This document shows positions 14,773 to 55,622 of a stretch of 64,000 nucleotides of DNA, in pieces (within the stretch, counting starts at the first letter, position 1; each line of letters opens with the position of its first letter). The position numbers and the translations under genes were made by a program. The notes under the pieces were generated by a model that was not told the origin of the DNA, searched no databases, and was given only the letters and a program-made list of their open reading frames with translations. The stretch covers positions 1-64,000 of the forward strand of contig NZ_JWLL01000006.1 in NCBI RefSeq assembly GCF_000814025.1, given 5' to 3'. The stretch is from Tateyamaria sp. ANG-S1 (GTDB taxonomy: Bacteria > Pseudomonadota > Alphaproteobacteria > Rhodobacterales > Rhodobacteraceae).

Positions 14773-14773
14773 A

Positions 14774-35990: not shown

Positions 35991-36472
35991 CAGGTGTATC
36001 CAGGGATCGGCCCGGTCTACAAGAAATGCTCACATTCTGCCGTGAGGGCGACGCCGTGGTGGTTCATTCATTGGACCGATTAGGTCGTGACATCCGGGAC
36101 CTCCTGAACATCGTTGAGGAACTGAACGCAAAGGGTGTTGCGGTTGAGTTTTTGTCAGAACGGCTGAAGTTCTCCAGGGATGACGACGATCCGTTGGCCC
36201 GGCTCCAACTGCACATGTTGGCCGCCTTTGCACAGTGGGAGCGAAATATTGCAAAGGCCAGGCAGGCCGAAGGTATCGCCCGTGCCAAGGCTCAGCATCC
36301 AGAGAAGTATCAAGGTCGTCCAGTCAGTATAGATGCTGAGCAGGTCAACCGGCTGAAAGAACAAGGGCTCGGCGCAACTGCAATTGCTAAGAAGATGAGA
36401 GTTGGACGGGCATCAGTTTACCGGCATCTCAGACGTGCTGCTGCACAAGCTGCCCAGCCGAAGGGGAGATAG
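35984..36472 (+). pseudogene. Serine resolvase/invertase fragment lacking the N-terminus
   Basis: A coding stretch that matches the second half of a serine recombinase: KLTGVSRDRPGLQEM, REGDAVVVHSLDRLGRDIRDL, AFAQWERNIAKARQAEG and a C-terminal helix-turn-helix (VNRLKEQGLGATAIAKKMRVG). The first ~45 residues, including the catalytic Ser in the usual YxRVS motif, are missing; the frame upstream is tail-spike sequence instead. It is thus inactive alone. The junction lies near 35984-35990. Only 56 bases separate its stop from the LysR gene end. Confidence 0.75.
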
Positions 36473-37495: not shown

Positions 37496-37543
37496 CAATG
37501 GTCGATATCTATGCAGGACAAACGATCCAACAGGAGATACCCC

Positions 37544-37846: not shown

Positions 37847-37900
37847 TTGGCTGATCTGGGCCCGGCGCATCGTACCGGGCCCATTGCAACGAGGACATTC

Positions 37901-39686: not shown

Positions 39687-40450
39687 TGACCAAAACCATT
39701 CTCATCACTGGATCAACCGACGGCATCGGGCTGCTGACCGCCAGGACCCTCGCTGACATGGGCCACATTATCATCTTACATGGTCGAAGTGCGGCCAAGC
39801 TGGACGCCGCAGCGAAGGAACTCGGTGGCGACGTTGCCACCTATCAGGCCGATCTATCGTCATTGGAAGAAACGACTGCACTCGCTGATGCGATCACAGA
39901 CAACCACGGCCGAATTGATGTGCTCATCAACAATGCCGGTGTGTACAAAACCCCCAACCCGATCCTACCAAACGGTCAGGATGTGCGGTTTGTTGTGAAC
40001 ACGCTAGCCCCGCATGTTCTGACCAAAGCCCTGCTACCGATCATTCCAAGCAATGGCCGCATCATCAACCTGTCATCCGCTGCTCAGGCCCCAGTTGATT
40101 TTGCAGCCCTCGCGGGCGACAAACACCTTGATGACATGGGTGCCTACGCCCAAAGCAAACGTGGCATCGCCTTGTGGTCGGCTCAGATGGCCGCAACCCA
40201 TCCCAACGGCCCCGCCTTCATCGCCGTAAATCCCGGCTCTTTGCTGGCGTCAAAGATGGTCAAAGAGGGCTTCGGGGTCGCTGGACACGATCTACAGATC
40301 GGTGCCGACATCCTGTGCCGCCTATCGCTGGATGACGACTTCACTGATGCATCTGGCCAGTATTGGGACAACGATGCGGGTGGCTATGGGCATGTAGACC
40401 CTAGTCAGGCCAAAGACGTGATGCAGGCAATCGAAGAACTCACCAACTGA
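39683..40450 (+). CDS. Short-chain dehydrogenase/reductase
   Basis: A 255-residue SDR oxidoreductase. The NAD(P)-binding motif is TGSTDGIGLLTART (TGxxxGIG), the structural NNAG is present as LINNAGVY, and the catalytic Tyr/Lys are in GAYAQSKRGIA, with a Ser in INLSSAAQ. It is the last gene of the LysR-divergent operon. The stop at 40450 is close to the presumed left end of the tRNA-linked element. The substrate is unknown but is likely shared with the CmcJ-like and luciferase-like enzymes. Confidence 0.9.
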   Translation: MMTKTILITGSTDGIGLLTARTLADMGHIIILHGRSAAKLDAAAKELGGDVATYQADLSSLEETTALADAITDNHGRIDVLINNAGVYKTPNPILPNGQDVRFVVNTLAPHVLTKALLPIIPSNGRIINLSSAAQAPVDFAALAGDKHLDDMGAYAQSKRGIALWSAQMAATHPNGPAFIAVNPGSLLASKMVKEGFGVAGHDLQIGADILCRLSLDDDFTDASGQYWDNDAGGYGHVDPSQAKDVMQAIEELTN

Positions 40451-40552
40451 GGGCGACATAGCACGGGAGATCAGTTGGGTAAGGCCAACGCCAAAATACC
40501 TCTGAGTGCGGTTGCCGACACCACCGTCGGCTTCGTTAAAGGAGGACCGTAT

Positions 40553-40939
40553 ATGTACAAGATCGATGACTGTTGCGAAGTACCGCAGTCAGACTTGCCT
40601 GACGCACTGGAGTTCTTGAATAGGGTCCGTCAGCGCCGACATGCTGCAACCACGTCAAAAAAACCACCAAACCAAGTACGAACGAGAAGAAAGCTTGCTT
40701 TCCACAATATCGGATGTGGCTGCATGATATCGCGAGAACAGATGCACAGTGTGCTGACGAGCGACCTGCAACGGGACCTCCTCGAACGTATTTTGGCGCA
40801 CCATTATGGCTACGAACACACGCCAGACTCTTTCACGCTAGGGGCTGCGATGTTCTTCGTCAGGCACGTCAGCCGCAACGCCGCAAGCCGTCTCCCCGCC
40901 CTAGGCGGATATCCATGGAATCCACACGAAAATGAGTAA
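40553..40939 (+). CDS. Hypothetical protein at the left end of the element
   Basis: A 128-residue protein of unknown family. The start at 40553 follows a strong AAAGGAGG ribosome site; a longer frame begins at 40475. It has a Cys/His-containing segment (FHNIGCGCMISREQMH) and a helical C-terminal half (LQRDLLERILAHHYGYEHTPDSFTLGAAMFFVRHV). The stop overlaps the next gene start. It is likely phage-related by position only. Confidence 0.6.
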   Translation: MYKIDDCCEVPQSDLPDALEFLNRVRQRRHAATTSKKPPNQVRTRRKLAFHNIGCGCMISREQMHSVLTSDLQRDLLERILAHHYGYEHTPDSFTLGAAMFFVRHVSRNAASRLPALGGYPWNPHENE

Positions 40940-41210
40940 CCTCGCCTTATACCCCGGTGCGTCTGAGCGCCTTGAATTGAGTGTCCTACCTGTCACTTGG
41001 ACGGCACCCAGAAACGCCGGAAATCCAATGCGAGTTCGCATCATCGGCACGCTTGGCTTCCACGTTGCGAGCGGGACCAACGTCACCACCGACTCCATGT
41101 TCATCCCCGATTGCGCAGCCGAAATCCTCAGTGTGGGGTCTGGCGGCACCCTTAGCTTTTTGAAGATGGAGAATAGCAGCGATGGCCCGGTGTGGGTGAC
41201 GGTGGTCTGA
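40932..41210 (+). CDS. Hypothetical phage-type beta-rich protein
   Basis: A 92-residue protein with a beta-rich pattern (RVRIIGTLGFHVASGTNVTTDSMFIP, EILSVGSGGTLSFLKMENSSDGPVWVTVV). Its size and location just before the TerS-like gene are like small structural or decoration proteins of phages, but no family was recognised. The ATG overlaps the preceding stop by 8 bases. Confidence 0.6.
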   Translation: MSNLALYPGASERLELSVLPVTWTAPRNAGNPMRVRIIGTLGFHVASGTNVTTDSMFIPDCAAEILSVGSGGTLSFLKMENSSDGPVWVTVV

Positions 41211-41214
41211 CATC

Positions 41215-41712
41215 ATGGCCGCGAAGAACCACGAACAGCGAGAACGCTTTTGCCAGTTACTGGCCGACGGCATGAAACAGGTCGAAGCCTATGGCGCGGC
41301 GGGTTACCGCCAGTCCGCCAGCGGCGCGTCACGCATGGCAAATGAGCCAGAGATACGCGCCCGCGTTGAAGAGTTGCGGCAAGAGCGGTGGATGGCGCGA
41401 GAAGGGATAGACGTCAATGATCCACGTAGTATCCCGTGGTTGGGACAAGCTTATGTGGAACTCTTCCAAGCGGCGCGGAAAGCGCGGAAGTTTGGCGAAG
41501 CGGTCAAGGCGCTTGAGAACATTACCAAGCTAATCCATTTCGAAGAGCGTGTGAACCAGACCGCCGCATCAAAGCCTGTCGCGCCCTCCGACAAGATCAA
41601 CTTAGAAGACATGCTGGGGGTCATTGATCGAGTCTGCGATATTGCCAGCGCAGCAAATGACAACGCCGCGCGTCAAAGCGTGCCAATGGTCCAAATCCCA
41701 CCGAATAACTGA
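41215..41712 (+). CDS. Phage terminase small subunit-like protein
   Basis: A 165-residue protein with the TerS-type DNA-binding N-terminus: EQRERFCQLLADGMKQVEAYGAAGYRQSASGASRMANEPEIRARVEELRQ is a helix-turn-helix of the kind found in terminase small subunits that recognise pac sites. A helical middle (ELFQAARKARKFGEAVKALENITKLIHFEE) follows and the tail is flexible. No large terminase lies next to it, which is unusual for a complete phage but normal for satellites that redirect a helper phage's packaging. Confidence 0.7.
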   Translation: MAAKNHEQRERFCQLLADGMKQVEAYGAAGYRQSASGASRMANEPEIRARVEELRQERWMAREGIDVNDPRSIPWLGQAYVELFQAARKARKFGEAVKALENITKLIHFEERVNQTAASKPVAPSDKINLEDMLGVIDRVCDIASAANDNAARQSVPMVQIPPNN

Positions 41713-41904
41713 TTTTGGGCCGCGCCCACCGGCCCAAAACCGCGCCCGCCTGCCATTCTCCTTGGAGGCGGGCGCACCCTTAATTCGAAAAACTGAAATC
41801 CGGCCCGACCGGAACCACCGCTGGCCCCGAACCAGCAGACATTAACAGCGGGGCGCGTCAGCGCCCACCCCCGACCGCAGAAGGAAAAATGAATGACTTA
41901 AACA

Positions 41905-42177
41905 ATGAATCGCTACGAACAGCTTGGGCGTTTGCTTCAAAATACGACCGCGCACCCTATGCCCGAAAACGGTGTCAATGTCTGCGAAGGCTGGCTAGAG
42001 GACATGTGCCGCTGCCCATCCACCGCGCGTAAGGCGCTATTATTTGCAGGCTATCGTCCCGCTTGCACAGGCGATGGGGATTGGATCATTGGCGGCTGGG
42101 GTGAAGTTAATTTCACCGACAATCTGGATAGCCAATTCCGCGAAGTGGTGCAGGCCATCATGCGAGATCGCGACTAA
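41905..42177 (+). CDS. Hypothetical small protein in the element
   Basis: A 90-residue protein of unknown family with two Cys near CEGWLEDMCRCPST and a Trp/Gly-rich middle (GDGDWIIGGWGEV). The ATG is preceded by an AAGGAAAAA-type site 20 bases upstream. The 191-base gap before it and the 306-base gap after it hold no clear gene, but the latter contains paired operator-like sites. Confidence 0.55.
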   Translation: MNRYEQLGRLLQNTTAHPMPENGVNVCEGWLEDMCRCPSTARKALLFAGYRPACTGDGDWIIGGWGEVNFTDNLDSQFREVVQAIMRDRD

Positions 42178-42483
42178 AACTACCTACTGTAACATTTCGT
42201 GATCGCGCTGGGCGGTATCCAATTCAGTGACAATCCTTGCCCCCAATCGGGGACCTGCGAACCCCTAATTTAGCTTCAAGCTGAAACGCCACGTTCGGTT
42301 TTCAGCTTGAAGCTAAACTTTGCCCGCATCGTTTGTTTTGAGGGGGAAACAGTGGTGCGAGGCGCTTTTCAGCTTCAAGCATAATTGCATATTTATCAAT
42401 AGGTTAGTCCGTTATATGGGCTTGATTCAGCGCCATGGACGTCACTATTTTTGCCTCAACGCGAACGATGAAAGGAATGAAAA
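42178..42483. promoter_or_regulatory. Intergenic region with AGCTTSAAGCT paired sites
   Basis: A perfect 18-bp inverted repeat has arms at 42269-42286 (TTTAGCTTCAAGCTGAAA) and 42300-42317, each arm itself nearly palindromic around AGCTTSAAGCT. A third, incomplete copy (TTTTCAGCTTCAAGCAT) is at 42366-42382. A CCCCAATCGGGG hairpin is at 42240-42251. The set looks like an operator cluster or binding sites for an element-encoded repressor. Confidence 0.65.
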
Positions 42484-42792
42484 ATGACCTATCCAAATGC
42501 CCAAAGTGGGGCCGATACAGAAACCGCGATTGTGTTGGCTGGTGCCTTGATAAATGACGCCGCCCAGCGCCCTTTGACGCGGCAGAACGCCCGTGACTTG
42601 CATGATGCGGCGGCGGAATTGGCAGGGCTTTGTGAGCGCGTTAGCGCTGGATATGACGACCTTGAAAGCGAGCTTATACGCGATGCGGGCTTACTCACCC
42701 AGCTTGTCGAACAGCCGTTGAACGCCGCGTCAACGGCTTCTGTGACCCGTCTGGCGGACACTATCGCCGAATGTGCGGCGGTGCTGGCATGA
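42484..42792 (+). CDS. Hypothetical small helical protein
   Basis: A 102-residue helical protein (LAGALINDAAQRPLTRQNARDLHDAAAELAGLCERVSAGYDDLESELIRDAGLLTQLVEQPL) without a recognised family. The GAAAGGAATG site precedes the ATG closely. Its stop overlaps the next start (ATGA), so it is co-translated with the 72-residue gene that follows. Expression may be controlled by the operator-like sites upstream. Confidence 0.65.
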   Translation: MTYPNAQSGADTETAIVLAGALINDAAQRPLTRQNARDLHDAAAELAGLCERVSAGYDDLESELIRDAGLLTQLVEQPLNAASTASVTRLADTIAECAAVLA

Positions 42793-43007
42793 CTTCAAAG
42801 AAGCCCAGAAAGCCTGCCGGATGGTGGACGCGCGAAAATGTGCTGCGCGACGCCGCTAGATTCAAGAGTCGGGCGTTTTGGCACGAAATTTCGCGGGGAG
42901 CGCATGGCGCGGCGGTCCGCAACGGTTGGCTGGCAGAGGCGCATAGGATCATAGATCGACGCCGATTGGGCGCGACAATGGATCAGGTGATAGCCGATGC
43001 TTTCTGA
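42789..43007 (+). CDS. Hypothetical basic small protein
   Basis: A 72-residue basic, Arg/Lys/Trp-rich protein (KKPRKPAGWWTRENVLRDAARFKSRAFWHEI) of unknown family. The composition suggests nucleic-acid binding. It overlaps both neighbours (ATGA with the previous gene, 11 bases with the next), a compact phage-like arrangement. Confidence 0.6.
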   Translation: MTSKKPRKPAGWWTRENVLRDAARFKSRAFWHEISRGAHGAAVRNGWLAEAHRIIDRRRLGATMDQVIADAF

Positions 43008-43770
43008 CTATTTGGTGGGCCAAATCGCAGAATGGGTACGTGGGGTGAATTTCGACGCGCCGCCGTTAGGCGGGCTGTCCCTTGCGCTATCTACAACGGA
43101 CCCAACAGCGGACGGTGCGGGCCTGTCAGAGCCACCAGCCGTTGCAGGCTATGCACGCCAGCCCGTCACCTTTTCCGCGCCTGTGGTGGGCGCTGATCGT
43201 GTATCGATGGCCAATGATAAGGTGCTGACCTTTGGCCCTGTCGTGGGCGCATCATGGGGCGAGAATAGCCACGTTGCCGTGTTCAATGACGTTGGCAATA
43301 TGCTTTGGTCAGGTGAGATTGATAGGGCGCGTGAGCGTCCGCTGGGCGATACACTGACCTTTGCCGTAGGTGCCTTGCAGATCGACATAGGCCCTTTCTT
43401 TTCTGCGTATTTCGCGACGGCTGTTCTTGAATGGATGCGCGGTGTTCCGATGCCCAGCGCCCCGCTTGGGGTTCTTGCTGGCCTGTCTATTGCGGACCCT
43501 TCGTTTGACGGTAGTGGCCTCAATGAATCCTCTTTGGCAGGCTACCAGCGCCTTGTTGCGCCGTTCGATTATTCGGGGCGGACTCTGGCCAATAGTTCGG
43601 CCCTGATCTTTGGTCCTGCCATTTCGGACTGGGGCAGCGTGACCTTTGGAACCGTGTTTTCTGATGGCGGCGACTTGCTGTTTTCTGGCCCGATTGCCGC
43701 GCCCGAAGACGTGGATTCAGGCGACACCTTTGCTGTGCCAGCGGGTGCTTATGCAATGCAAATAAGATGA
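42997..43770 (+). CDS. Protein with two tandem ~115-residue beta-rich domains
   Basis: A 257-residue protein made of two related halves. The first starts EWVRGVNFDAPPLGGLSLALSTTDPTADGAGLSE and the second EWMRGVPMPSAPLGVLAGLSIADPSFDGSGLNE; each continues through a conserved LTFGP or LIFGP block, W-G-x-V-x-F-G-type strand, G-x-x-L-x-x-S-G, and a Gly/Asp-rich loop. Such repeats occur in phage tail or fibre proteins, but no named family was recognised. It lies directly after the 72-residue gene. Confidence 0.65.
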   Translation: MLSDYLVGQIAEWVRGVNFDAPPLGGLSLALSTTDPTADGAGLSEPPAVAGYARQPVTFSAPVVGADRVSMANDKVLTFGPVVGASWGENSHVAVFNDVGNMLWSGEIDRARERPLGDTLTFAVGALQIDIGPFFSAYFATAVLEWMRGVPMPSAPLGVLAGLSIADPSFDGSGLNESSLAGYQRLVAPFDYSGRTLANSSALIFGPAISDWGSVTFGTVFSDGGDLLFSGPIAAPEDVDSGDTFAVPAGAYAMQIR

Positions 43771-43947
43771 AAAAAGCCCGCCGCGATGACAGGCGCGACG
43801 GGCAGTTGGAAACATGAACGGGGCGACCAACCCCTGAAATATTTCTACCCGAACAACGCAAACAGGTCAATAAAGCTGACATAAATGGTCGGGAATTTTA
43901 AGGAGCCAAACCGATGAAATGACAGCCAAAACCGAAGGAAACAGAAC

Positions 43948-45324
43948 ATGACAAATGCAATGCCAGACCCGGCCCCAAATCTCGTTTGGGCGGATATCGA
44001 CGGGAAGGTTGAACTATCTAACAGCGAAATCTGCGACTTGATGGTTGCGCGGCAGCTTGAAGAGGGTCACGAACTAGACGCACCATGCGCGGCTGCGCAG
44101 GAATTGTTGGATCAATGGGAGTCCGAAGGTGATGACCTTTCCGTAGACTGGGCAGCGGCGCGTCAGCGCCATCGCGCGGCAAGGCGCGTTAGCGCTGATG
44201 GCGAAGAACCAGAATACGAGGCAATTGAAAATCAGCCCGAATTGACGGAGGACGACCGCCGCAATCTAGCAAGCATCGCTAACGCGATTGCCATGGGTCT
44301 ATTTCCGTTCGTTCGCGAAATGATCGAAGGCAACGCGCCGGGGACACTGATCGACAAGCAGTTCGCGGGGACAGGTTCCGGTAAGCTGGAAAGCGCCTTT
44401 AGTATCATCGCATCGGGCAGCGCGACCCCAGCCGTTTCGCTGCCAGAAGACCCCGAAGAGATGACGAAGCGTCTATTGCCCGTTTTGCGCAGCGGACGCC
44501 CAAACGTCTTTTTCGACAATGTGAACCATGCCGTCGACTCTGGCGAACTTGCGTCAGCTATGACCGCTGATTGGTACGAAGCCCGCATTCTGGGCAAGTC
44601 TGAAACGATTGCCGTAGAGGTGCGATGCCAGTGGGTCGTGACCGGGATTCAGGTGCAGCTTTCGAAGGAATTGGCCCGCCGATTTTCACTGATCTTCATG
44701 GACCCTAAGACGGACAAGCCAGAAAATCGCGAGGATTTTCGACACGCTGACCTGACCGGATGGGTGCGTAAGAACCGGGGCCGTTTGGTCTGGGCCTGTT
44801 TGACGTTGGTGCAGAATTGGGTTGCTGGCGGGCGTCAGCCCGGTTCAGTCAATATGGCGTCCTACACGTCATGGGCGCAGACTATGAGCGGCATATTGGA
44901 AGCCGCTGGCATCCTCTGCTTGCGCGAAAACGCCAGCGATATGTCTGCCCGCGCATCGACCGAAAACGACCCCAAGCAGGTGTTGCTTGCCTACCTTGCC
45001 AGCTTTCCCGATGACACGTTGTTCGTGGCTGGTTCGGTGCCGAAGCGGCTTGAGGGAAAGGCGCAATCGGTCAAGGTCATTCTTGAAGACTTCTTTGGCG
45101 ACGAAGCCGCTGGCGAAACTGCCCTGCGAATTGCGGGCTGGGGGTATGACCGGGACGGCGCTTATGGTGATCCGCAGAAGATCGCAGCGGGGATGCGTAC
45201 GATTGAAGACATGCCGCACTCATATGACGGCGGACAGTTCACACTTGTGAAGGAACGCCACAAGGGCGCTAACGCGCTCACTTGGCGTTTAGACAAGACG
45301 GCGGACCCCGAAAAGCAGGCGTAA
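43948..45324 (+). CDS. Replication-type ATPase (primase/helicase-like)
   Basis: A 458-residue protein with AAA+/SF3-like features: a Walker A-type loop FAGTGSGKLESAF near residue 155, a Walker B-type strand PNVFFDNVNHAVDS near residue 205, and a VTGIQVQLSKELARRFSLIFMD region with candidate sensor and Arg-finger residues. The N-terminal ~100 residues are acidic and unlike known primases. This layout is like the replication ATPases of phages and integrative elements. Directly downstream lie nested inverted repeats that look like an origin, so the protein is a likely initiator or helicase for the element. Confidence 0.65.
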   Translation: MTNAMPDPAPNLVWADIDGKVELSNSEICDLMVARQLEEGHELDAPCAAAQELLDQWESEGDDLSVDWAAARQRHRAARRVSADGEEPEYEAIENQPELTEDDRRNLASIANAIAMGLFPFVREMIEGNAPGTLIDKQFAGTGSGKLESAFSIIASGSATPAVSLPEDPEEMTKRLLPVLRSGRPNVFFDNVNHAVDSGELASAMTADWYEARILGKSETIAVEVRCQWVVTGIQVQLSKELARRFSLIFMDPKTDKPENREDFRHADLTGWVRKNRGRLVWACLTLVQNWVAGGRQPGSVNMASYTSWAQTMSGILEAAGILCLRENASDMSARASTENDPKQVLLAYLASFPDDTLFVAGSVPKRLEGKAQSVKVILEDFFGDEAAGETALRIAGWGYDRDGAYGDPQKIAAGMRTIEDMPHSYDGGQFTLVKERHKGANALTWRLDKTADPEKQA

Positions 45325-45329
45325 AAACG

Positions 45330-45596
45330 AAGTGCGGTGGTTTGCGGTGGGCACCGCACCCGTAACCTATTGATTTTAAACGAGGTGCGGTGGTTGCGGT
45401 GCTTTTTCGGGGTTGGTCGCGAAAATGCCCCGCAATCTTGTTTTCGTTTAGCGAGGGGCACTTAAGACGGACGTTGTACGTAAAAAAAGAAAATCTTTGA
45501 TTTTTATCAAGGGTAGAGGAAAAGCACCGCAACTACCGCATATTCAATGATTTCAATGACTTACGTGTGCGGTGCCCACCGCAAACCACCGCACTT
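45330..45596. other. Candidate replication origin: nested inverted repeats
   Basis: A perfect 30-bp inverted repeat has arms at 45330-45359 and 45567-45596, rich in the repeated unit GCGGTG/CACCGC. Inside it, a second repeat of about 20 bp with one mismatch pairs 45386-45406 with 45520-45540. Between the inner arms is an AT-rich stretch (45480-45511, with runs of A and T). The repeated GCGGTG units resemble iterons and the AT block a DNA unwinding element. The stretch 45325-45640 has no gene. Function as an origin is inferred. Confidence 0.6.
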
Positions 45597-45640
45597 TCCG
45601 CGAATGAGAAAGAAACATCGTAAGTGCCCGCGTTAGCGGG

Positions 45641-46561
45641 TCATGCCGCCTCTGCTTTCAAGATGTGCTCGCCAATCTGTTGAACTGTGCCCAGCGCACG
45701 CAGCCGTAGTTCCTCTTGGTCGGCTTGATGCTCAAGCTCTTTGAAAGCCTCTTCTAAGTTGGCTTGCTGCTTGTCCGTAACCTGTGGGTCGTCCTCAGAT
45801 GGCCGTTGCAAAATCATTTCGTGTTGCCGCGTGAAATTGCTGCCGGGTTCGCGGTCGCGTTCCACCTTCAAATCCCACAACCGCCGCTTAATGAGATTGA
45901 CTGAACCTGTCAGCGAGCCAGCCTTGAGAGTGCCGAAATTCGCAACCAGTTTGGACCCAGAAAAGTCGATGATGACTTTGTGGCTGGTGCCCTTCATTCG
46001 CTTCTGTCGCCCTTCGCGCAGATCAGCGCTGAAAAAACCGGCAAAGCCTTCGCGTCTGTCTTTCACGTAGTCGCAAACCAAAAACGGTAAGCGGTCGCCT
46101 GCGCCTTGTCCCGCAGCCGACAAACCCGCAGCCACTTTGCTAACTGCATTCTCGTTCAACGGCTCAATATAAAGCGATGATAGTGCAGTCATCCAACTAG
46201 AGCCAATGGCCGCGAGACTAACCCCTTCAACTTCGCTGACGATTCCAAATGCAATCCCACTAACCGCAGGGTCGGGTTTTGAAATTGCTTCTGGCCCACG
46301 CTGCGCGAGATCATCGCGCAAATATTCACCTGCGATTTCTATAGCTTGAACTGCACCAACAGCATCCTCGCCATAAAAGCACTTTAGCCGCGCCAATTGG
46401 TTAGCCCACTCCAGATGAAAACCATCTGAATTGAAAACAGCGACACCGACGACAAAACGCTCATATGACCCGGATATGGGTTCGAAAAACACAGGTGCCC
46501 AATGCGCACGCACAGCATCGCGCAGCTTTGGGAATAGGTCTGTGTCTATTGCAATATCCAT
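45641..46561 (-). CDS. Hypothetical partner protein of HipA-like kinase
   Basis: A 306-residue protein with no recognised domain. It is mixed alpha/beta in the first ~200 residues (AHWAPVFFEPISGSYERFVVGVAVF, DLREGRQKRMKGTSHKVIIDF, KLVANFGTLKAGSLTGSVNLIKRRLWDL) and has a long helical, charged C-terminus (KQQANLEEAFKELEHQADQEELRLRALG) that may form a coiled coil. Its ATG overlaps the stop of the kinase gene (TAATG), which points to coupled synthesis and joint function. It is transcribed opposite to the surrounding phage genes, as accessory modules often are. Confidence 0.65.
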   Translation of the reverse strand: MDIAIDTDLFPKLRDAVRAHWAPVFFEPISGSYERFVVGVAVFNSDGFHLEWANQLARLKCFYGEDAVGAVQAIEIAGEYLRDDLAQRGPEAISKPDPAVSGIAFGIVSEVEGVSLAAIGSSWMTALSSLYIEPLNENAVSKVAAGLSAAGQGAGDRLPFLVCDYVKDRREGFAGFFSADLREGRQKRMKGTSHKVIIDFSGSKLVANFGTLKAGSLTGSVNLIKRRLWDLKVERDREPGSNFTRQHEMILQRPSEDDPQVTDKQQANLEEAFKELEHQADQEELRLRALGTVQQIGEHILKAEAA

Positions 46562-47358
46562 TATACCATCGTTGGCACGCCCAGCGCCTTGCTCGCATGT
46601 ACAGGCACCATAGCAGTCCTGTTCTCAAGAAATCCTTTCAGTGCGTCCACGCTCTGTAGCGGCAGAAGGTCGGTGATGCGACTGTTTTTCGACGTTTCTG
46701 TAGCGTCAAATCCGTCTATGTCTGCACCGAACTTGCGGACCTCAGTTGCACGCTGACGCTTTTGTTCCAGCGTCAAAACATGCGTAAGCCATTCACTTAG
46801 CTTGTTTCTATACTCTACTGACGGGTCCAGTTGGTTTGCTTGCCACTCAGGGCCGGTAAAGCAATGCCCGTGGTCGATCAGCCAAAATTCGTTCTGTCCA
46901 CCAAACAGGAGGTTCCCCGGATGGCGGTCTACGTTAGCCACCCAAGCATCGAAAGCATACAAGTGTCCGAGATCGCCCCACTTAACTATCTGATCTTGTA
47001 GGGCCTTACGCCCCGCTTCGTCAGAACCAGTCCAGCGATAGGTCACATTGGGAACTTTCACGTCTACACTTACGAAAACCAATCGCGAGCCGTCGGGTGT
47101 CGTAGGGGCCTTGGTCGCGGTCAGTACGTCAGACCTAGCAAGGCCAAGATAACAGTCGGGGATTGGCAAGCCTACGTCCCTCGCCAAGCTATGCGCAACA
47201 AGTTCATTGCACAATTGAACTAGGTTTAAGTCTTTTATTATTGCCTGACGGGTTTCGTTTTTTGACGTTAGTATTTGGCCTCTAAAAGTGTCGTTTACGT
47301 TATTATCTTTGAAGCCCTTGGCTCCAAGGAGTACCGTCGCAAGCTCAACAGTTGGCAT
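46561..47358 (-). CDS. HipA-like Ser/Thr kinase
   Basis: A 265-residue kinase-like protein of the HipA/PI3-4-kinase-related fold. The catalytic loop is ANVDRHPGNLLF at about residues 140-151 and the metal-binding segment is WLIDHGHCF near 159-167; an ATP-binding Lys is expected around AIIKDL near residue 42. It is shorter than true HipA (~440 residues), lacking its N-subdomain. No HipB-type antitoxin is seen upstream. It overlaps a partner gene of unknown function, so the pair may be a phosphorylation-based defence or regulatory module carried by the element. Confidence 0.75.
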   Translation of the reverse strand: MPTVELATVLLGAKGFKDNNVNDTFRGQILTSKNETRQAIIKDLNLVQLCNELVAHSLARDVGLPIPDCYLGLARSDVLTATKAPTTPDGSRLVFVSVDVKVPNVTYRWTGSDEAGRKALQDQIVKWGDLGHLYAFDAWVANVDRHPGNLLFGGQNEFWLIDHGHCFTGPEWQANQLDPSVEYRNKLSEWLTHVLTLEQKRQRATEVRKFGADIDGFDATETSKNSRITDLLPLQSVDALKGFLENRTAMVPVHASKALGVPTMV

Positions 47359-47464
47359 CAACTACTCTAATTTTTTCAATGTTCATCAACCCTAGCGGGT
47401 TACGTTCTGATTTGGCAACAATTTTGCGACTAGCTGAAATTAAGCCCCACAGCCGCCGCCGAGC

Positions 47465-47486
47465 GTTCATTTGTGAACATTGTTCA
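47465..47486. promoter_or_regulatory. Operator-like palindrome upstream of the kinase module
   Basis: GTTCATTTGTGAAC at 47465-47478 is a palindrome with a 4-base centre, followed by another GTTCA at 47482-47486. It lies about 107 bases upstream of the HipA-like start and could be a repressor site. The rest of 47362-47764 shows no supported gene. Confidence 0.4.
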
Positions 47487-47764
47487 TTTTCTGCATCCGG
47501 CTCCACTATGTGGAACAAGGACCAATGTTTCCTACTAAATTGGTCAGAAATTGATTTGCGCCGACTCTGCAACTTTGGTTGCAATCGCAACAACTTTTCG
47601 ACCGACCCGCCCACTTGCGAGCCATTCGCAAAATTCCCCCTCAAATCGCTTCTGCGATTGTCCACGTTTTCAACCGGATTGTCCCCAAATCAGCCGCTAA
47701 AATCGCCCGTATGAACACGTATATAAAGCACAACCGACGATGACGTTTTTTAGAAGTGGCGCAG

Positions 47765-48436
47765 ATGACCCAAATGACCAAGAAATACGTGATTTACTAT
47801 CGCGTCAGCACAAAGCGCCAAGGTGAGTCCGGTCTGGGCCTTGAAGCGCAGGAACGTGACGTTGCGCTTTATCTTGAGAATTACAGCGACCAGCCATTTG
47901 AAGTGTTGGGCACGTTTACCGATGTGGAGTCCGGCAAACACGCCGACCGCGTGGAATTAACGAAAGCCTTGGACCTTGCCCGCAGTGAGGGGGCAGAGCT
48001 ACTTGTCGCCAAGTTGGACCGCCTTTCGCGGAAGGTCAGTCAGATCGCCGCTCTAATGGACGACAAACGTCTATCTATCCGGGTGGCAGCAATGCCAAAC
48101 GCTGACAAGTTTCAACTACACATCTATGCAGCACTAGCCGAACAAGAGCGCGACTTTATCAGCTTGAGAACCAAGCAAGCCTTAGCATCTGCCAAAGAGC
48201 GTGGCGTTAAACTGGGCGGTCTGCGCGACAAAACAATGAAGCGCAATGAAGCCGCCAAAGAGGTTGCCGACATTGCAGCCAAGCGTATCGCGGATATTGC
48301 TATGCCATTGCGCGAGGCAGGCAAGAGCTACCAAGCTGTCGCTGACGCGCTCAACGCTGCAAAGGTGGCCACGCCGCGTGGTGGTCGTGAATGGTATCCC
48401 GCAAGTGTGCGTAACGCACTGCTTAGGCTTGCGTAG
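47765..48436 (+). CDS. Small serine recombinase (resolvase/invertase)
   Basis: A 223-residue serine recombinase with the catalytic Ser in YYRVSTKRQ near residue 11, followed by GLGLEAQERDV, LLVAKLDRLSRKVSQIAAL and AALAEQERDFISLRTKQAL. The C-terminal ~80 residues have the helix-turn-helix region (AAKRIADIAMPLREAGKSYQAVADALN...REWYPASVRNALLRL). It is complete, unlike the fragment at 35984-36472. No strong ribosome site is visible; ATG at 47774 is an alternative start. It lies in the middle of the element and may mark the edge of a cargo insertion. Confidence 0.9.
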   Translation: MTQMTKKYVIYYRVSTKRQGESGLGLEAQERDVALYLENYSDQPFEVLGTFTDVESGKHADRVELTKALDLARSEGAELLVAKLDRLSRKVSQIAALMDDKRLSIRVAAMPNADKFQLHIYAALAEQERDFISLRTKQALASAKERGVKLGGLRDKTMKRNEAAKEVADIAAKRIADIAMPLREAGKSYQAVADALNAAKVATPRGGREWYPASVRNALLRLA

Positions 48437-49093
48437 CCAAGCGAAAGAGTGAGGATTAACAATCCGTTATCCCGTCAGGGGCCGGGTGCGATACGCCCAG
48501 CACCAGACCTGCCAACGCGGGCCTCTCCTGTCACACATACATATCCGCACACCATACCACCCGCCCACACCCCGGCCAGCCCGTACAGAAGGTCAACCAA
48601 ACACAAAACCAACAGAAGCCGAAACCTCGCAAACACTCGCCCAACATTGGATCCACCGGCCCACCAGCAAGCTATCCTGCCATGTCGCCAGCCCGCCCGT
48701 GGTGCCGCTTCAATCGAAGTTCCGTATTGTAGAACTATTGGGGTGGCTGGGGTGTGGGGGACGCGCGTCAGCGCGGTCAAAGCAAAGATGACTGTTGCTT
48801 CTTGCAAGGCAGTCAGCGTGCGTTGGCAAGCATTGCTTCCAGATTCATGTCGGGGGACCCAAGGCGGGAGTACCCCCTATCATTGAATCGCGCGTAGGTG
48901 CTGTTTATGAGTTGCAGAGCAACTCCATGGTTGCAGTCCGCGAAAACCTTTTTTCACCAGAAATGAATCCGCCTTTTTGAATCGTTGATAGCCATTTTGC
49001 GTTCCAAACATTTAGGATCAAGAGTTTACAGTGCGTAAGTGACAAAGCTTAGATGCTTAAACAAAAAAGCCGATTGATAGCTGTTGGCGACGT
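48437..49093. other. Intergenic stretch without a recognisable gene
   Basis: I see no coding frame with a ribosome site or recognisable protein here. The sequence is mixed in composition, with a CA/CC-rich portion around 48520-48650. It separates the serine recombinase from the oppositely oriented M23 gene. Confidence 0.5.
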
Positions 49094-50095
49094 TTAAAAA
49101 CACTCGCCCGCCGCGACACCGGAAATCCAATCTTCGTCAACACCAGTATCTAGTTCAAACGGCTTAAACTGCTTTGCATTGCAAGAATCTAGAGACCCAT
49201 CAGTAAAAAACTGGGGCGAAATACTTGCTACAAAATGATGTAGCCCTCCGTTAACTTGGCCTTCACTTACGGACTCAGCTCTGTTCATTGTGTAAGACAT
49301 GTAACGTAAGCGGTTATCGTCAATTAACTCTAGATCACCCGAACCGGGGTCTGCAGAAGGCTTCCAATTCAAGCCACATGTATCTTGGATAATACTAGTC
49401 GATCCAGCGGGTGCGGAAAACAAAACTTTGTTGCCAGAAAACGCTGTAATACGAGGCACCCACATGAATTCAGCCACTATTCTACAGCCCGTTTGTAAGA
49501 TCGTCAGTTCCCTTCGCCGAGTGTGAAAGAAAGCCACACCAATAATCTCGCTGCTAAAAATTTTTAGCTCATCCGTTTCAACAAATCGCCCCCCCGGTGC
49601 CGAATATTGCCTCGTCACAGACCATGTGCCGTCAATAAAATTCTTAGTTGCGTGTGTCTGAGGATCGACAAAGTTCCTTGGGTTCCCAGAAGAGGTAGCC
49701 CAACAAGTTTGCCCAGCACCCGGCACCTGAACCTGTAAATGTAGGTGTATGCCTGAAATGTCTGTCCCGGGAGGCGCAGTGTCTCCAGTCTTCCCAAGAA
49801 CAGTCCAAGGGTATACGTCGTCGCCAGCAACAACCGACGTTTCAGAACAGTGCAAGTATTGAATCCAAGTTGCCGAACCGTCTCTTGGGGCAACCGCAAC
49901 TGTTCCGTAGGCTCCGCCAACAAATACAACTTTTCCAAAAATACCGGCTGTAAACGGCGTTGCTACTCCCGAGCTTCGAATGTCTAGTCCTTTGTGTGGG
50001 CATCCGTCTCTCATTTCGCCAAATCTGGCTGAAATCCCCCCCATCCCGGCAAGTCCAACTTCAAATGGCGTCAAACCAATCATTTTTTTCTCCAC
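49094..50095 (-). CDS. M23-like peptidase (LytM domain)
   Basis: A 333-residue protein with an N-terminal LytM/M23 domain: PHKGLDIRSSGVATPFTAG carries the first His and Asp, and IHLHLQVQVPGAGQ carries the HxH motif of the zinc site, spaced ~75 residues later as in the family. No signal peptide is seen. The C-terminal half is of unknown fold. M23 peptidases in phage elements degrade peptidoglycan during entry or lysis, or lie on tail tips. It is transcribed opposite to the tape-measure gene. A role in host lysis is inferred. Confidence 0.75.
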   Translation of the reverse strand: MEKKMIGLTPFEVGLAGMGGISARFGEMRDGCPHKGLDIRSSGVATPFTAGIFGKVVFVGGAYGTVAVAPRDGSATWIQYLHCSETSVVAGDDVYPWTVLGKTGDTAPPGTDISGIHLHLQVQVPGAGQTCWATSSGNPRNFVDPQTHATKNFIDGTWSVTRQYSAPGGRFVETDELKIFSSEIIGVAFFHTRRRELTILQTGCRIVAEFMWVPRITAFSGNKVLFSAPAGSTSIIQDTCGLNWKPSADPGSGDLELIDDNRLRYMSYTMNRAESVSEGQVNGGLHHFVASISPQFFTDGSLDSCNAKQFKPFELDTGVDEDWISGVAAGECF

Positions 50096-50340
50096 AAAAA
50101 AGTATCTGAAACGCTATCGTGACGTTCCACAACCATTTGGTGCAACGTTCGTGTCAGAGACAATCTAAGTCAAGAAGTGATGCGTTAGGAACGGGTCGTT
50201 TAATATGCATGTACCTCCTTTGCGTGCGGCTGGTGAGAGCGTCTTTGGGTAGATCAGCTAGAACTTTAAACGACCAAAGGTTCAGCCGTTCGACCGTCCA
50301 AATTCGGTCAAACACACTCACTGTGATACAATGCAGGCAC

Positions 50341-50401
50341 GCGCCTTCCTTCGGCGCGATGGATAGTCATTTGTCCTCTGGGGCGGTTGCAGGACCGCCC
50401 C
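50341..50401 (+). terminator. Two hairpins upstream of the tape-measure gene
   Basis: GCGCC/GGCGC with a 7-base loop is at 50341-50357, and GGGGCGGT/ACCGCCCC with a 6-base loop is at 50380-50401. Both lie in the leader of the tape-measure gene (50436). There is no T-run, so they may be structured leader or weak terminators. The rest of 50096-50435 shows no gene. Confidence 0.45.
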
Positions 50402-50435
50402 ACACCTTCCTGCAAAATCAAAAGAACAAATAATC

Positions 50436-53400
50436 ATGGAAACACATGAGCTACGTCTAAAGATAGACGCCGCCGCCGCGCAAAGCGGTTCCCGTCAGTT
50501 TGTCGCCGCCGTAAACGCTGTAAAGGCCGCAGTCCGCGACCTAGAGCGTGACACAAACGGGGCCTTCACACAGCTTCAAAATATCAAGCCGCAAGTTGAC
50601 GTAAGCGGCCTTCGCAGCGCCACAACAGAAACGAACAACGTAGCCAAGGCCGCAACCGCAACGGAACGTGCGGCGGCAAACATGGCACGCCAGATTCAGC
50701 AAACGGCGCTGTCAAGCGCGGCAGCATTGCGCACCAGCGAACAAGCAGCACAGCGCCTTAGCCAGCGGATGCTAGATATTGGCGACACTCAGGGGGTGGT
50801 CCGCCTCAACGGCGCTCTGTCGCAGCTTCGTTCTAACCTTACCGCCGCAACCAGCACATTAGATGTGCGCAGCGCTCGTTCCCAGTTCGATGACCTTCGT
50901 TCGTCACTGTTGCAGAACACCGTCGCAGCGGAACGGCTGCGCGGGCAGCAGGCATAGCTTGCGCGTGAAATGGAAGAGTCCGCCCGTGCCGCATCCAGTC
51001 AATCGGCGCGACTTGACGAACTACGGTCCCGTTACAATCCACTTTTCAGCGCATCTAAGGCTTACGAACGCGCATTGGATGAGATCGCGGAAGCCGAACG
51101 CGCCGGGGCTATCAGCGCCCAGCTTGCGAGCGATGCACGAACACGGGCCGCAGCGCAATTGAGCGGGGCCGCGTCGGCGGCAGACCAGTATGCAGTATCG
51201 CTGCGCCGTTCGTCCGCTGCCACTCAGCAGGGCGTCATGGCGGGGCAACAGTTCTTTGACGTCCTAATTCAGGCCCAGCAAGGGTTCGTTGGTGTTGGCA
51301 CAATCGCCCTGCAACAGGGTTCACAGCTTGCCGCTCAAATGAACGGTCTACGCGCCGCCGGGGGCAGTGTTTTCAGCACTCTGTTGGGCGGTCTGACCTC
51401 GCTGATTAATCCGTTGTCGTTGCTGACAATCGGGGCCGTCGCCGCAGGTGCCGCAATCATCAAGTGGTTCGGATCAGGCTCGGCAGAAGTAAAGTCTTTT
51501 GACCAAGCGCTATCTGACGCCACCAGTCGTTTGAATACGCTGCGCGATGCCAACGACGCAATCAACGGGCGAAACGTTGAGCAACTAAGAGATCGCTATG
51601 GCGAGCTAAACGCCGAGTTGGACGCCCACATTGCCCGGATGCAGCAAATCGCAGAACTTGACGCTGCCAAGTCCGCGCGTGAGCTTGCAGACCCGATTCA
51701 GGATGTGGTCACAAGCGATTTCAACCCTCTGACAACCAGCGTCGACTCGGTGCGCCGGACCTTTGGGACGACCAACGGCTCCGCCCGCAACTTCCTGCGC
51801 TTGCTAGAAAACATCCGAAACGCCCGCACCTTCGATGAGCAACTAGCCGCGATTTCAGCAGCCCGCGCCGAAGTGGAACGCCTGACGGGGGGACTCGGTC
51901 AGGCGGAAGGTGCGGCGGCAGATGTGGCCACACAGCTTGTCCGCGCAGAGGATTTGGCAATCCAGTTGGCGAACGCACAGGATGGCACAACGGAAGCCAC
52001 CAACCGCGCAGCGGGTGCCGCGTCAGTTCTGACCGTTGAGATAGGTAGCGCCGCGAATGCTGCCGCTGCACTACTCGCGAACTTGGGTAATGTCCCAAGC
52101 GCAATCGCATCAATTCAGGGGTCAGTGAGTGACCAAATTGCAGAGATCAACGCCGCCAACCGCTCGCTTCAGATTCAGGTTGATAATGGACTGACAGCGG
52201 CGGCGGCGGACAGGACCGTTCAACTCGAACAGCTCGTGGACGCTGTAGCAGAAGGCGACCAGACAGTCAGCTTTGACCAGATCGCTGACCTTCAACGCGA
52301 AATCAATGATTTGAACACGGCGACGGAACGCACCGCCGAATTGCGCGACCGTCTGAGTCAGCAGAATAACCCGACGCGACCACGTGCGCGGCCTAGTTCT
52401 GGCGGCGGGCGTCGTTCATCTGGTGGCGGTGGCGCATCGTCCGCACGCACAGCCGCGATAAGCGAAGAGCAACAGGCGCTAGACCGTCTGAACGAGTCTT
52501 TGCGGTCGCGCCTACAGTCGCTTGAGGCTGAGCGGATCGAAATGGGATTGGTCGCGTCCGGGCAGTTCGAAACAGCCGAAGCCGCTCGCCTAATGGCACA
52601 GGCAATGGTGCAGAGCGGCGGCGCAGTCGATGGCCAAACCGCCGCAATGATCCGGCAAATTGATGCCGCCAGCCGTCTCAACGAAGAGCTACGGCGCGTG
52701 GCAACGGACCCCGTGCGCGAGTGGATGGACTCTGTGCCCAATTGGATCGAAGCCGGACAACAGATTGAGATTGGCGCAATCAACCACCTTAAGGACGCAA
52801 TCTCTCAGTTTGTTCAGACAGGCGAATTTGACATTGAAGCGCTGGGCCAAGCGATCCTTGGCACCATTGCGGATATCGTTGCAGACAAGGCCGTTGCCGA
52901 ACTCGCTAACCTATTCGGGCGGGGGGATGCTGACTCTGGCGGTCTAGGGGGCCTTCTGGGCGGTCTATTCGGCTCACAGGGCGATGAATTGACAGGGCCA
53001 ACAGCGGGCTTCGGACAGGGCCAACAGGTCGCACAGGGCGGCGTACAGGCGGGCAACAGCATATCGCAGGCCATGGTGCAGGCGGGGCAGCAAGTCTCAC
53101 AGCAGATCAGCAGCGCAATGACCCAAGGGGGCCAGCAGGCAGGACAGGCAACGCAGCTTGCACACGCTCAGGGTGGACAGCAGGCAGCGAATGCGCAGCG
53201 CCTTGCAGGTATCCAGCACGGTCAACAGGTACGCATTGCGACCTCGACCAGCGGAAACCAGCACGCAACGCAGGTGCGCACAGCTATTCAGGCGGGCGGA
53301 CAGCAACACGCGGCACTTGTGCGCGGCGCAGCCGCAGGCGGCGGCGGGTTCGGTGGCGGTGGGGGCCTCTTCGGGACTGTCCTTAGCTTCCTGCCCGGAC

Positions 53401-53735
53401 TCTTCGCGGAAGGCGGCATGTCCAATGCGCCAGTTGCGCGTGCCCATGTATCGCCCACCGTTTTCCGCAACGCACCGCAGTTTGCCGAAGGCACAACGAA
53501 CACGTCTGGCATCCCGGCAATTTTGCACGACAACGAAGCCGTTGTGCCCCTGACGCGCGGACGTCGCATCCCTGTTGATATGTCTGGTATGGATGGCATG
53601 GGCGGTGGCGTGAACAACTTCAACGTGACGCAGAATATCAGCACCCCGGACGCAGACAGCTTCCGGCGTTCGTCCAAGCAAATTTCGAGTGATGGATTTA
53701 CGGCTGCGCAGCGGGCAGCGGCGGCGAATAACTAA
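50436..53735 (+). pseudogene. Phage tail tape-measure gene with an internal TAG
   Basis: A 3.3-kb frame for a tape-measure protein, ~1,100 codons. The helical, Ala/Gln-rich body, a central membrane-like segment (LINPLSLLTIGAVAAGAAIIKWF) and the C-terminal AEGGMSNAPVARA and PAILHDNEAVVPLTRGRRIPV are typical of this family. At 50955-50957 a TAG interrupts the frame; the context RGQQA-stop-LAREMEESARAA stays in frame on both sides, so one C-to-T change from CAG (Gln) would explain it. An ATG at 50970 could restart translation to give 921 residues. Neighbouring tail genes are absent. The gene is probably non-functional or a truncated form. Confidence 0.8.
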
Positions 53736-53773
53736 CAAGCCCAGCGCTGGGCGGCGAAGTCCGGCTAACGCCG

Positions 53774-55441
53774 CTACTTACAAGGATCGCTCCGTTCCAC
53801 CCAATGTTTCAGCAATTCGAACTCCGGCCCGTCATCGTAGTGACGAATGGCCCCGCTTTCCACGTGACCAAGAATTGCTCTTCGTACATCTTTTGGTGCG
53901 CCCGCCCGACGCATCGCGTTCTGAAATGTTGAACGAAGCGAGTAGAGCGTTTTGCGTCGGTTTGTGATCGGTTGCCGCATTTTCTTGCGGATCAATTTTG
54001 CGAAGTTGTGCCGCAAGACGGTGACCGTGTCGGTTTGTTGTTCGCCTGTCGTAGTGTTGTGAAAGGCATTCATGCCACCCGAATGCAGCCAGCTAGGGAA
54101 GTCCTCTATATTCGGATGTAGAGGTATCACGCGCCAAGAACTCTTTGTCTTGCCGCCTTCGACCCGAATAGCTCGTTCGTCTACTTGGTCGGATCGCAAC
54201 GCCATAAACTCCGCTGGGCGCATAGCAGAATGAGCCAGCACACGAACCGCCATTTGAAGCGCTGTCCGGCGTTCCTCAGTCAAACCTTGAACAGGTTGCC
54301 CCCAAATATCACTAAGCGCGGCGAAAATGCGGCCACACTCTTCTGTGTCGAACGGTAACCATTTGGACTCTTCGACTGCCCTGCGCTCTTTGGGCAGCTT
54401 AACGCTGACCATGGGACTGATTTCTATCAGTTCTTCGTCCACGGCATAGCCAAACAAACCCATGATTGGACTGAACTCTGCGCGGATCGAAGAGGGCAGT
54501 AAGCCACGGCTCTTTAGCTTGTCGCGGTAGTCTCGAAGGGTCTTCGCTGTGACCTGCGAAACAGGAATGTTGCCAGCGTCCGCGATGAACCTTTCTATCG
54601 TTCTTCGATATTTGTCTTCTGTTTTTGGACGCAATTCTGCGAAAGCATAGAATTTTTCTGCGACCCGCCTTAGCACATCCGGGTCACGTGCAACCCGTGC
54701 GATTTTCCGTTCTAGCCCCATCCTTGCAAAGTCGAACTCGTCTCTTTCATTTGGATTTATTGGAGGCTGTATTTGCTCGCCAAACGCCCCGTTGAAAGCA
54801 TCGGTCAGGCGGTCATGGTATTCGTCGTCATCCATAGGTGTCGGTAGTGCATCGCTTAAACGAACGTGCGCCTTCAAGTGGTCGGGCAAGTCCGTGACCA
54901 TTTCCTTAAATTCGGAAAACGGAGGCAGCTTTAAAACCGCGCCTTGGAAGTCCGCTGCGTGGATACGCTCAATCAATGCCTTTTTTTCGGCTAACCCGTT
55001 AGCGTCGGGCGGCAAGTGGCGCTTCCGTTCCAGTTCCAGACCTTCGTAGACACTGGGTAAGTCTTTCCACGCATCGTTGGGATTGAAGTCTGGGAAAGCC
55101 TCTTGAAATTCTTCGGCGTCAGTTTGGTGCCCATTCGCGACGCACCATTTGGCGTAAGCCGCGTCAGCGGCGGCGTCTTTGACCGCTTTTTCGTCCTCTT
55201 TCGCTCTGCGTGTCTTCGTCTTGTGGTCTTGTCGCTCGATAGGGTCGGCTAAGCGCTCGATTAGAGCGTCATGTTCTTTAGCAAGATCGCGCAGTTTTTC
55301 GTATGCTTGATCGAAGTCTTGCCCCAACGGCGACCGCCACTTTTTGCGCCCGACTGCGGGCTGTAATTCGAGAGGAATTTTGCGCTGATAGAAGTACCTA
55401 CCGCGCTCAATCAGCATGTGTTTTGGCTTGGTTTGCAGCAT
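53774..55441 (-). CDS. Tyrosine site-specific integrase with DUF6538-type N-terminus
   Basis: A 555-residue phage-type integrase. The N-terminus (MLQTKPKHMLIERGRYFYQRKIP) has the DUF6538-like arm-type domain. The SAM-like core-binding region is around KTEDKYRRTIERFIADAGNIPVSQVTAKTLRDYRDKL, and the catalytic domain has the Arg in AHSAMRPAEFMALR and later a His/Arg pair (SLRSTFQNAMRRAG) and the terminal GHVESGAIRHYDD with the Tyr. The start at 55441 was chosen since a longer frame crosses the tRNA. It lies 97 bases from the tRNA-Tyr 3' end and is oriented away from it, as for elements that use a tRNA as attachment site. Confidence 0.88.
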   Translation of the reverse strand: MLQTKPKHMLIERGRYFYQRKIPLELQPAVGRKKWRSPLGQDFDQAYEKLRDLAKEHDALIERLADPIERQDHKTKTRRAKEDEKAVKDAAADAAYAKWCVANGHQTDAEEFQEAFPDFNPNDAWKDLPSVYEGLELERKRHLPPDANGLAEKKALIERIHAADFQGAVLKLPPFSEFKEMVTDLPDHLKAHVRLSDALPTPMDDDEYHDRLTDAFNGAFGEQIQPPINPNERDEFDFARMGLERKIARVARDPDVLRRVAEKFYAFAELRPKTEDKYRRTIERFIADAGNIPVSQVTAKTLRDYRDKLKSRGLLPSSIRAEFSPIMGLFGYAVDEELIEISPMVSVKLPKERRAVEESKWLPFDTEECGRIFAALSDIWGQPVQGLTEERRTALQMAVRVLAHSAMRPAEFMALRSDQVDERAIRVEGGKTKSSWRVIPLHPNIEDFPSWLHSGGMNAFHNTTTGEQQTDTVTVLRHNFAKLIRKKMRQPITNRRKTLYSLRSTFQNAMRRAGAPKDVRRAILGHVESGAIRHYDDGPEFELLKHWVERSDPCK

Positions 55442-55538
55442 TGTCGGTACCGAAAAATCGCTTCTGGGTACCGAAAATAGGCACCGTATGCGCCAACAAT
55501 AAGGCAAAAGCGTATAATTTTCAATTGGTTGAGGTAGA

Positions 55539-55622
55539 TGGTGGGCGACCCTGGAATCGAACCAGGCGTGCGTCTCCGCGAGGGAGTTACAGTCCCCTGC
55601 CACACCTTGCGGCCTGTCGCCC
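55539..55622 (-). tRNA. tRNA-Tyr (GUA)
   Basis: On the minus strand an 84-base tRNA starts with GGGCGAC and ends GTCGCCC-A-CCA, giving a perfect 7-bp acceptor stem. The anticodon loop CTGTAAC carries GTA, the D-arm stem is GCC/GGC, the T-arm is CCTGG-TTCGATT-CCAGG, and the variable arm is long, as expected for tRNA-Tyr. It is the likely integration site of the element. Confidence 0.95.

Follow-up and report, generated by a model that had tools for sequence, protein, structure and literature searches.

The 64,000 nucleotides of Tateyamaria sp. ANG-S1 considered here (contig NZ_JWLL01000006.1, positions 1 to 64,000; hereafter the window) carry an integrated element next to a tRNA-Tyr gene, which probably represents, in decayed form, a family of phage satellites of ~15 kb in the Rhodobacteraceae (Table 1). 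The element begins with small genes and a terminase small subunit (TerS)-like gene, continues with a replication protein (Rep), an origin-like palindrome, a kinase pair and a resolvase, and ends with a peptidase, a tape-measure protein (TMP) and an integrase. An earlier, sequence-only reading had proposed from such an arrangement a satellite of the phage-inducible chromosomal island (PICI) kind. Its integrase against the tRNA gene (Pfam, ARAGORN), its origin-like repeat behind the replication gene and its small-terminase-like gene at the opposite end (PHROG and phage matches) have all been confirmed. Its replication-type ATPase belongs to a replication protein family, of which only a part is covered, and the tape-measure and M23 peptidase genes are both present, the former with a broken frame.

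Table 1. Features of the tRNA-Tyr insert, in window coordinates
Feature	Position	Strand	Basis or remark
Relic of another element	34476..36472	+	family-less open frame fused to invertase lacking its N-terminus
Host-type cassette (LysR, DUF1330, unknown, luciferase-like, short-chain dehydrogenase/reductase)	36,548-40,419	.	Pfam; congener block
Two small genes, left edge of satellite part	40475..41210	+	open reading frames; no family above cut-off
TerS-like gene	41215..41712	+	PHROG terminase small subunit, E=1.6e-9
Two small genes upstream of Rep	42484..43007	+	
gp80-like fibre/head protein	42997..43770	+	Pfam PF23140, E=1e-37; Caulobacter and Brevundimonas phages
Rep, C-terminal helicase-like part, 458 aa	43948..45324	+	phrog_10537, E=2.3e-66
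Origin-like palindrome	45325..45596	.	77-nt arms 45330-45406/45520-45596; TGCGGTGG in both orientations
Gene beside HipA_2-like kinase	45641..46561	-	phrog_21150, E=1.8e-28
HipA_2-like kinase	46561..47361	-	Pfam, E=4.6e-10; weak PADLOC candidate matches
Small serine resolvase, upstream of TMP	47756..48436	+	Pfam Resolvase
M23 peptidase, accessory	49094..50095	-	Pfam, E=1.5e-8
Chimeric short TMP gene	50436..53735	+	PHROG TMP families
Tyrosine integrase, 555 aa	53774..55441	-	Pfam Phage_integrase, E=3.9e-7; PHROG
tRNA-Tyr (gta)	55539..55622	-	ARAGORN; right attachment site inferred at its 3' end

The surroundings of the same tRNA-Tyr were compared across 18 genomes from the genus and the wider family. 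In relatives, its 3' end lies ~20 nt (G010) or ~110 nt (G012) from the point where the ABC transporter gene upstream ends (window ~34,308), and the foreign DNA therefore spans ~34,309-55,538 (~21.2 kb). Once the cassette and the relic on its left are set aside, the satellite part covers ~40,420-55,538, or 15.1 kb; the earlier estimate of about 15 kb thus suits the satellite part and not the whole insert. The comparison with related genomes, which had been proposed as a way to find the exact ends, places the right end at the tRNA and gives the start of the insert; no left repeat was found. Relatives of the integrase occur beside tRNA-Tyr in G008, G002 and G011, as well as in the satellites L175, L181, L182, L184, L185, L186 and L188. 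The site is a hotspot, since G004 holds an extra 41-nt copy of the tRNA 3' end 1.7 kb off and inserts of ~3-9 kb are found at this tRNA in G001, G006, G015 and G017.

The TMP is the hallmark of the family. Its frame in the window is open for 1,099 codons but for one TAG at codon 174 (50955-50957), which divides it into 50436-50957 and 50970-53735 and could be an assembly error. The nearest relatives found for both of its ends are the CbK-like roseophages, phages of 146-150 kb (DSS3P8, MD18, DSS3_MAL1, V10, RcXuper and RpAliso). The N-terminal piece matches aa 3-48 of the DSS3_MAL1 TMP at 85% and the C-terminal piece aa 1395-1823 at 71%, and none of 65 phage records covers 80% of the latter piece. 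The TMPs of CbK-like phages (n=5) comprise 1,815-1,909 aa, and those of the elements 862 to ~1,090 aa, counted from the conserved start (upstream of which the frames of L176, L178 and L179 extend). All 21 full-length element TMPs match the phage proteins in two stretches, the initial ~45-160 residues and the last ~280-430, the second match beginning at phage residue ~1,385-1,485 and running toward the end. Between these ends they hold ~500-660 residues where the phages have ~1,250-1,430; this middle is unrelated to the phage middle and resembles TMPs of ordinary siphophages and prophages (~30% identity where given). A single open frame encodes the protein in 20 of the 21. The tail of DSS3phi8 measures ca. 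300 nm, according to PMC4961962, and its TMP has 1,825 aa, i.e., 0.16 nm per residue. By extrapolation at this ratio, a ruler of 1,041 aa would give a tail of ~170 nm.

The window TMP piece was searched over 394 genomes of the family, and full-length relatives were found near integrases and Rep genes. A TMP alignment (A1) retrieved near-full-length TMPs in 5 of the 394, the window's own included, and in 1 of 385 genomes of a class sample, the window's own alone. A scan of GTDB contigs gave 28 TMP loci, 26 of them assigned to Rhodobacteraceae by record title; the other two, in Hyphomicrobiaceae and Rhizobium, are C-terminal matches only. No closer TMP relative was found within the genus, where 19 other genomes returned two weak partial matches. 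Direct repeats were then sought in 22 TMP loci, among them 17 further 20-kb stretches, at detectable distances of roughly 8-18 kb. They bound 16 of the 22 loci, delimiting elements of 14,704-16,132 bp (mean 15,507, s.d. 410). The repeats lie at tRNA genes in 15 cases (Val 6, Phe 4, and Met, Asn, Leu, Thr and Pro), at either end of the element; that of L184 (20 nt) is without a called tRNA, that of L188 is 15 nt long, and the left copy in L178 begins at the edge of the stretch examined. No repeat was accepted in the other six loci: in L083 and L084 the contig begins at the locus, L179, L183 and L190 had none, and a 15-nt repeat at 15,098 in L176 was not counted as a complete element.

The 16 complete elements are alike in content. 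All contain an integrase and a Rep, nine a resolvase, and 14 a TerS-like gene, which is a Nu1-like candidate in 12 and a roseophage-type TerS in two others; the TMP is present in every one by selection, the elements having been sought through it. Along the direction of the TMP, a Nu1-like gene usually comes first, followed by s165 (a small protein described below), small genes, Rep, cargo, resolvase and TMP, with the integrase at either end. The TMP lies downstream of Rep in all 16, and integrases and origin sequences differ among members. These near-equal elements with integrase, Rep and TMP and without a recognised head gene favour the satellite nature that the sequence-only reading had proposed. 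They also change the meaning of the TMP, which had been taken as a pointer to a decayed prophage: the gene is common to the family, yet the window copy is indeed decayed. The same integrase and origin together with full sets of capsid and terminase genes at the site were not seen in the loci examined.

Rep and the iterons behind it form another module. The window Rep matches just positions 897-1147 of the 1,229 of phrog_10537, and its 458 aa compare with ~700-1,240 aa in most relatives; it reaches 45% to the Rep of L175 and ~50% to a roseophage protein. The palindrome directly behind it carries TGCGGTGG three times forward and twice reversed. Its score of 42 far exceeds those of 200 dinucleotide shuffles (at most 13.5) and of 150 host-flank windows (at most 17.5), although the window count of the top 9-mer (3) is not beyond shuffles. 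In the 16 elements, the top 9-mer within 600 bp behind Rep was counted against 200 shuffles each. The copies numbered 10, 3, 2, 6, 2, 2, 9, 3, 3, 10, 3, 6, 15, 13, 4 and 4, with at most 2-3 in the shuffles. Iterons beyond all 200 shuffles are thus present in 11 elements, seven of which have at least six copies. Some arrays are mirror-symmetric, with seven forward and then eight reversed copies in L191 and three and three in L189, and the iteron sequence differs from element to element.

The CbK-like roseophages are also the nearest relatives found for Rep and for the window-type TerS. Their recorded hosts are Rhodobacteraceae, none being recorded for DSS3_MAL1. MD18, a member of this group, is reported in PMC7643831 to be a lytic siphophage whose head is prolate and whose tail is long and flexible. 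RcXuper is annotated with portal, capsid, tail and large terminase (TerL) genes; its 1,045 open reading frames (ORFs) were searched, with an E-value limit of 1e-3, against 17 sequences, namely the complete elements plus the island of the window. Its TMP is matched in all 17, and its Rep-like gp133 in 14, the window included (not in L177, L181 and L189), the best match being 83% over 438 residues in Pseudotabrizicola. RcXuper TerS is matched in the window (33%, E=1.9e-23), L191 and L189, gp56 in L188 (63%), and one integrase in six; the remaining frames listed overlap TMP, gp56 or gp133. Window-type TerS relatives are located directly behind the TMP in L190 and L191. No match at this threshold was obtained for the portal, major and minor capsid, adaptor, tail tube, chaperone, minor-tail and TerL proteins, the best E value being 0.049. 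Nor were large terminase, portal or capsid genes found among the island ORFs scanned, part of the small ORFs included, in agreement with the earlier reading. A search of the whole Tateyamaria genome with PF03354 (TerL_ATPase), alone among TerL families, did not find it.

Other genes of the complete elements were surveyed with TMP, Rep and integrase excluded. Of 201 such ORFs with 80 aa or more, the 137 that reach 110 aa were scanned, and so were 143 further ORFs of 50-110 aa. All 20 Pfam families detected in the 137 (E<=1e-5) were considered; they include resolvases, DarT and macro (two each), TIR, caspase, OLD-type TOPRIM, AAA ATPases, AbiJ, Panacea antitoxin and CHC2 zinc finger, with no head gene and no conjugation family among them. 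Tail-gene families are limited to one ORF with a phage minor tail family, which is among these 20, and one tail-completion ORF (PHROG, best 25 of 65 families). The defence genes include DarTG in two elements, ThsB, CapP and SAVED-HNH (PADLOC, best 25 of 90 families), as well as OLD/Gabija-like and AbiJ matches. The small ORFs gave one zinc ribbon. The AlpA family was not found in either set, although regulators that are diverged or very small might escape such scans.

The protein s165 is a conserved helical protein of ~160 aa encoded near the Nu1-like gene in 12 of the 16 complete elements (e.g., L104:688-1158 and L122:1485-1985). The members scanned have no family match and no significant match in the PDB. 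It is a candidate for head-size or packaging control. The predicted structures reach a mean predicted local distance difference test score (pLDDT) of 89 for the Nu1-like protein and 81 for s165.

These data can be read as a family of satellites of the Rhodobacteraceae that exploits CbK-like siphophages as helpers and builds shorter, chimeric tails, of which the window holds a decayed member; a probability of roughly 0.68 is given to this reading. Whether the satellite sets the tail length of its own virion, through a chimeric ruler whose ends are of the helper type and whose short core yields tails of roughly half length, is rated as an even chance. The mechanism is modelled on the sequence facts and on the precedent of the PICI-like elements (PLEs), as reported in PMC12987554. 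On infection, a CbK-like siphophage of 146-150 kb would trigger excision of the satellite, and its own primase-helicase Rep would fire the iteron origin directly behind the rep gene. The satellite TerS might then direct the phage large terminase to satellite DNA. The short TMP would supplant that of the phage, its matching ends still fitting the tail tip, chaperone and tube proteins. The resulting tail would be ~55% as long, ~170 vs ~300 nm, with the other virion parts provided by the phage, and the anti-phage cargo genes might shield the host from other phages.

Several observations weigh against the satellite reading. In the window copy the left attachment repeat is missing, Rep is partial and the TMP contains a stop; no left repeat was found in the whole window with 12-mers of the tRNA-Tyr 3' region. 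Matches of 7 nt near 40,430-40,457 were rejected as left-repeat candidates, since 28% of 2,000 random host windows score at least as well. With these defects the window copy is a relic, and most likely no longer mobile by itself. The family itself shows irregularities. The last part of the L182 TMP is in another frame, and iterons do not exceed shuffles in five of the 16 elements (L178, L181, L182, L186 and L188). The TMP is not universal: L090 (G240, 890-16,923, 16.0 kb) holds a related integrase, a TerS-like gene, Rep and resolvase inside a 26-nt repeat, and L096 (G081 C15, 1,101-15,839, 14.7 kb) has Rep, integrase, direct repeats and a weak TerS-like match, both without a TMP match, so that the TMP is an optional module and not a requirement. 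On the packaging side, similarity of the Nu1-like protein to TerS families is weak (one member scanned reached E=3.3e-5, another had no match), and nothing in the PDB resembles its model significantly. No capsid-size gene has been recognised, and 15.5 kb would have to be packed into a head built for ~147 kb. The satellite was not found as free packaged DNA in the IMG/VR records examined. A TMP profile scan of that database gave 48 loci, mostly C-terminal matches, and a scan with one Rep gave no match. Six records were checked: one contains a full short TMP (7.5 kb, tRNA-Val at the end), four have frames of 1,454-1,950 aa, and one lies too near a contig end to judge.

The elements could also be satellites that use the short TMP as a weapon, in which case it would act as a dominant-negative ruler and poison the assembly of phage tails. 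A protein with phage-type ends and without the phage middle would be suited to this, and the elements do carry defence genes. Interference with tail assembly is reportedly a known theme of defence. However, the TMP is a large protein kept in one open frame in nearly all full-length relatives and not a small fragment. The TMPs of PLEs, moreover, are virion parts required for transfer, according to PMC12987554, and a decoy role is considered rather unlikely. Still less probable are integrative, plasmid-like islands that are never packaged and in which TMP and TerS-like genes travel as passengers. Rep, iterons and resolvase would fit such islands, but the size range is narrow, the TMP follows Rep in every complete element, the genes in common point to one phage group, a TerS-like gene is present in 14 of 16, and conjugation families were absent from those detected. 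A deletion derivative of an ordinary prophage, in which TMP, gp80-like and M23 genes are leftovers of the decayed window copy, is the least probable origin of the window element and is rejected for the family as a whole, for although phages of the CbK-like type carry an integrase gene (RcXuper; DSS3phi8 in PMC4961962), the elements are alike across many genera in size, attachment repeats, gene order and lack of detected head genes, and retain Rep-iteron modules, and none of the 65 phage records covers 80% of the window TMP piece.

Satellites are already known from other bacteria. PICIs and the Staphylococcus aureus pathogenicity islands (SaPIs) possess an integrase, a Rep with an iteron origin, TerS, a size of ~15 kb and defence cargo, and the PLEs carry a large serine integrase. 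The Rhodobacteraceae elements resemble PICIs and SaPIs in the integrase at one end, the internal Rep and origin, a putative TerS gene, the size, the defence cargo and the absence of a detected head gene; they differ in having a TMP, in the AlpA family not being found among the ORFs scanned, and in Rep, TMP and some TerS being related to one group of large phages. Membership in the PICIs, as the earlier label implied, is hence not supported. Some capsid-forming PICIs carry putative tmp genes, as stated in PMC12987554. They encode their own capsid genes, in contrast to the Rhodobacteraceae elements, where none was found.

The closest parallel is the PLE of Vibrio cholerae, an integrated element with its own TMP whose helper is ICP1. 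According to PMC12987554, it forms chimeric tails 10 nm shorter, deletion of its tmp lowers transfer by 96-99.9%, and the TMP of PLE11 is 95 aa shorter than that of the phage with 20% identity to it; the same source states that no such use of a satellite TMP had been reported before this 2026 work. Unlike PLEs, the Rhodobacteraceae elements have tyrosine integrases at tRNA genes, a probable CbK-like siphophage helper, and TMPs ~40-55% shorter than those of the phages, with phage-like ends. PLE also has tail assembly chaperone (TAC) and BhuB genes; a chaperone of the RcXuper type was not found here, though TAC can diverge beyond the reach of this comparison. Satellites and satellite TMPs are therefore known, but searches of open-licence literature (bioRxiv not covered) revealed no TMP-bearing satellite of the Rhodobacteraceae, nor the presumed helper group or a TMP change of this extent. 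If the satellite reading is correct, the family would represent an independent tape-measure swap that concerns a different bacterial class and a different type of virion, changes the length far more than in PLE, and has TMP ends that plainly match one phage group. A satellite would then control tail length as other satellites control head size. Likely helpers, as isolated roseophages, and hosts with intact elements, among them Ruegeria halocynthiae, R. sediminis and Citreimonas salinaria, can be named, making tail-length control directly testable, and the family adds a carrier of defence genes in Rhodobacteraceae.

The remaining genes of the window copy are less widely shared. The kinase pair (45,641-47,361) lies between Rep and the resolvase, the position of cargo in relatives, and the HipA_2-like kinase is likely cargo; neither it nor its neighbour has a match in the 22 related loci. 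The same holds for the M23 peptidase, whose phage matches are partial and weak. Homologs of the resolvase, up to 75%, stand directly upstream of the TMP in relatives, and a small serine resolvase holds this place in nine of the 16 complete elements, where it may serve in multimer resolution. Upstream of Rep, L182, L186 and L187 contain weak relatives of the gene at 42484 (E 8e-4 to 0.002), and the gene at 42771 matches phrog_20046 (E=3.6e-6). A perfect 18-nt inverted repeat with a 13-nt loop (window 42,269-42,317) is present between the genes at 41905 and 42484.

The host-type cassette on the left of the satellite part occurs as the same block at other places in congeners (72% in G005, 70% in G007). 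Elsewhere in the Tateyamaria genome, C28:51603-51841 holds parts of both ends of this cassette without the middle, as if a resident copy had been deleted and another acquired. A second island of ~6.9 kb, with frames that are xanthine-dehydrogenase-like by eye, occupies window 19,975-26,860; it is missing in relatives, in which window ~19,972 and ~26,861 adjoin.

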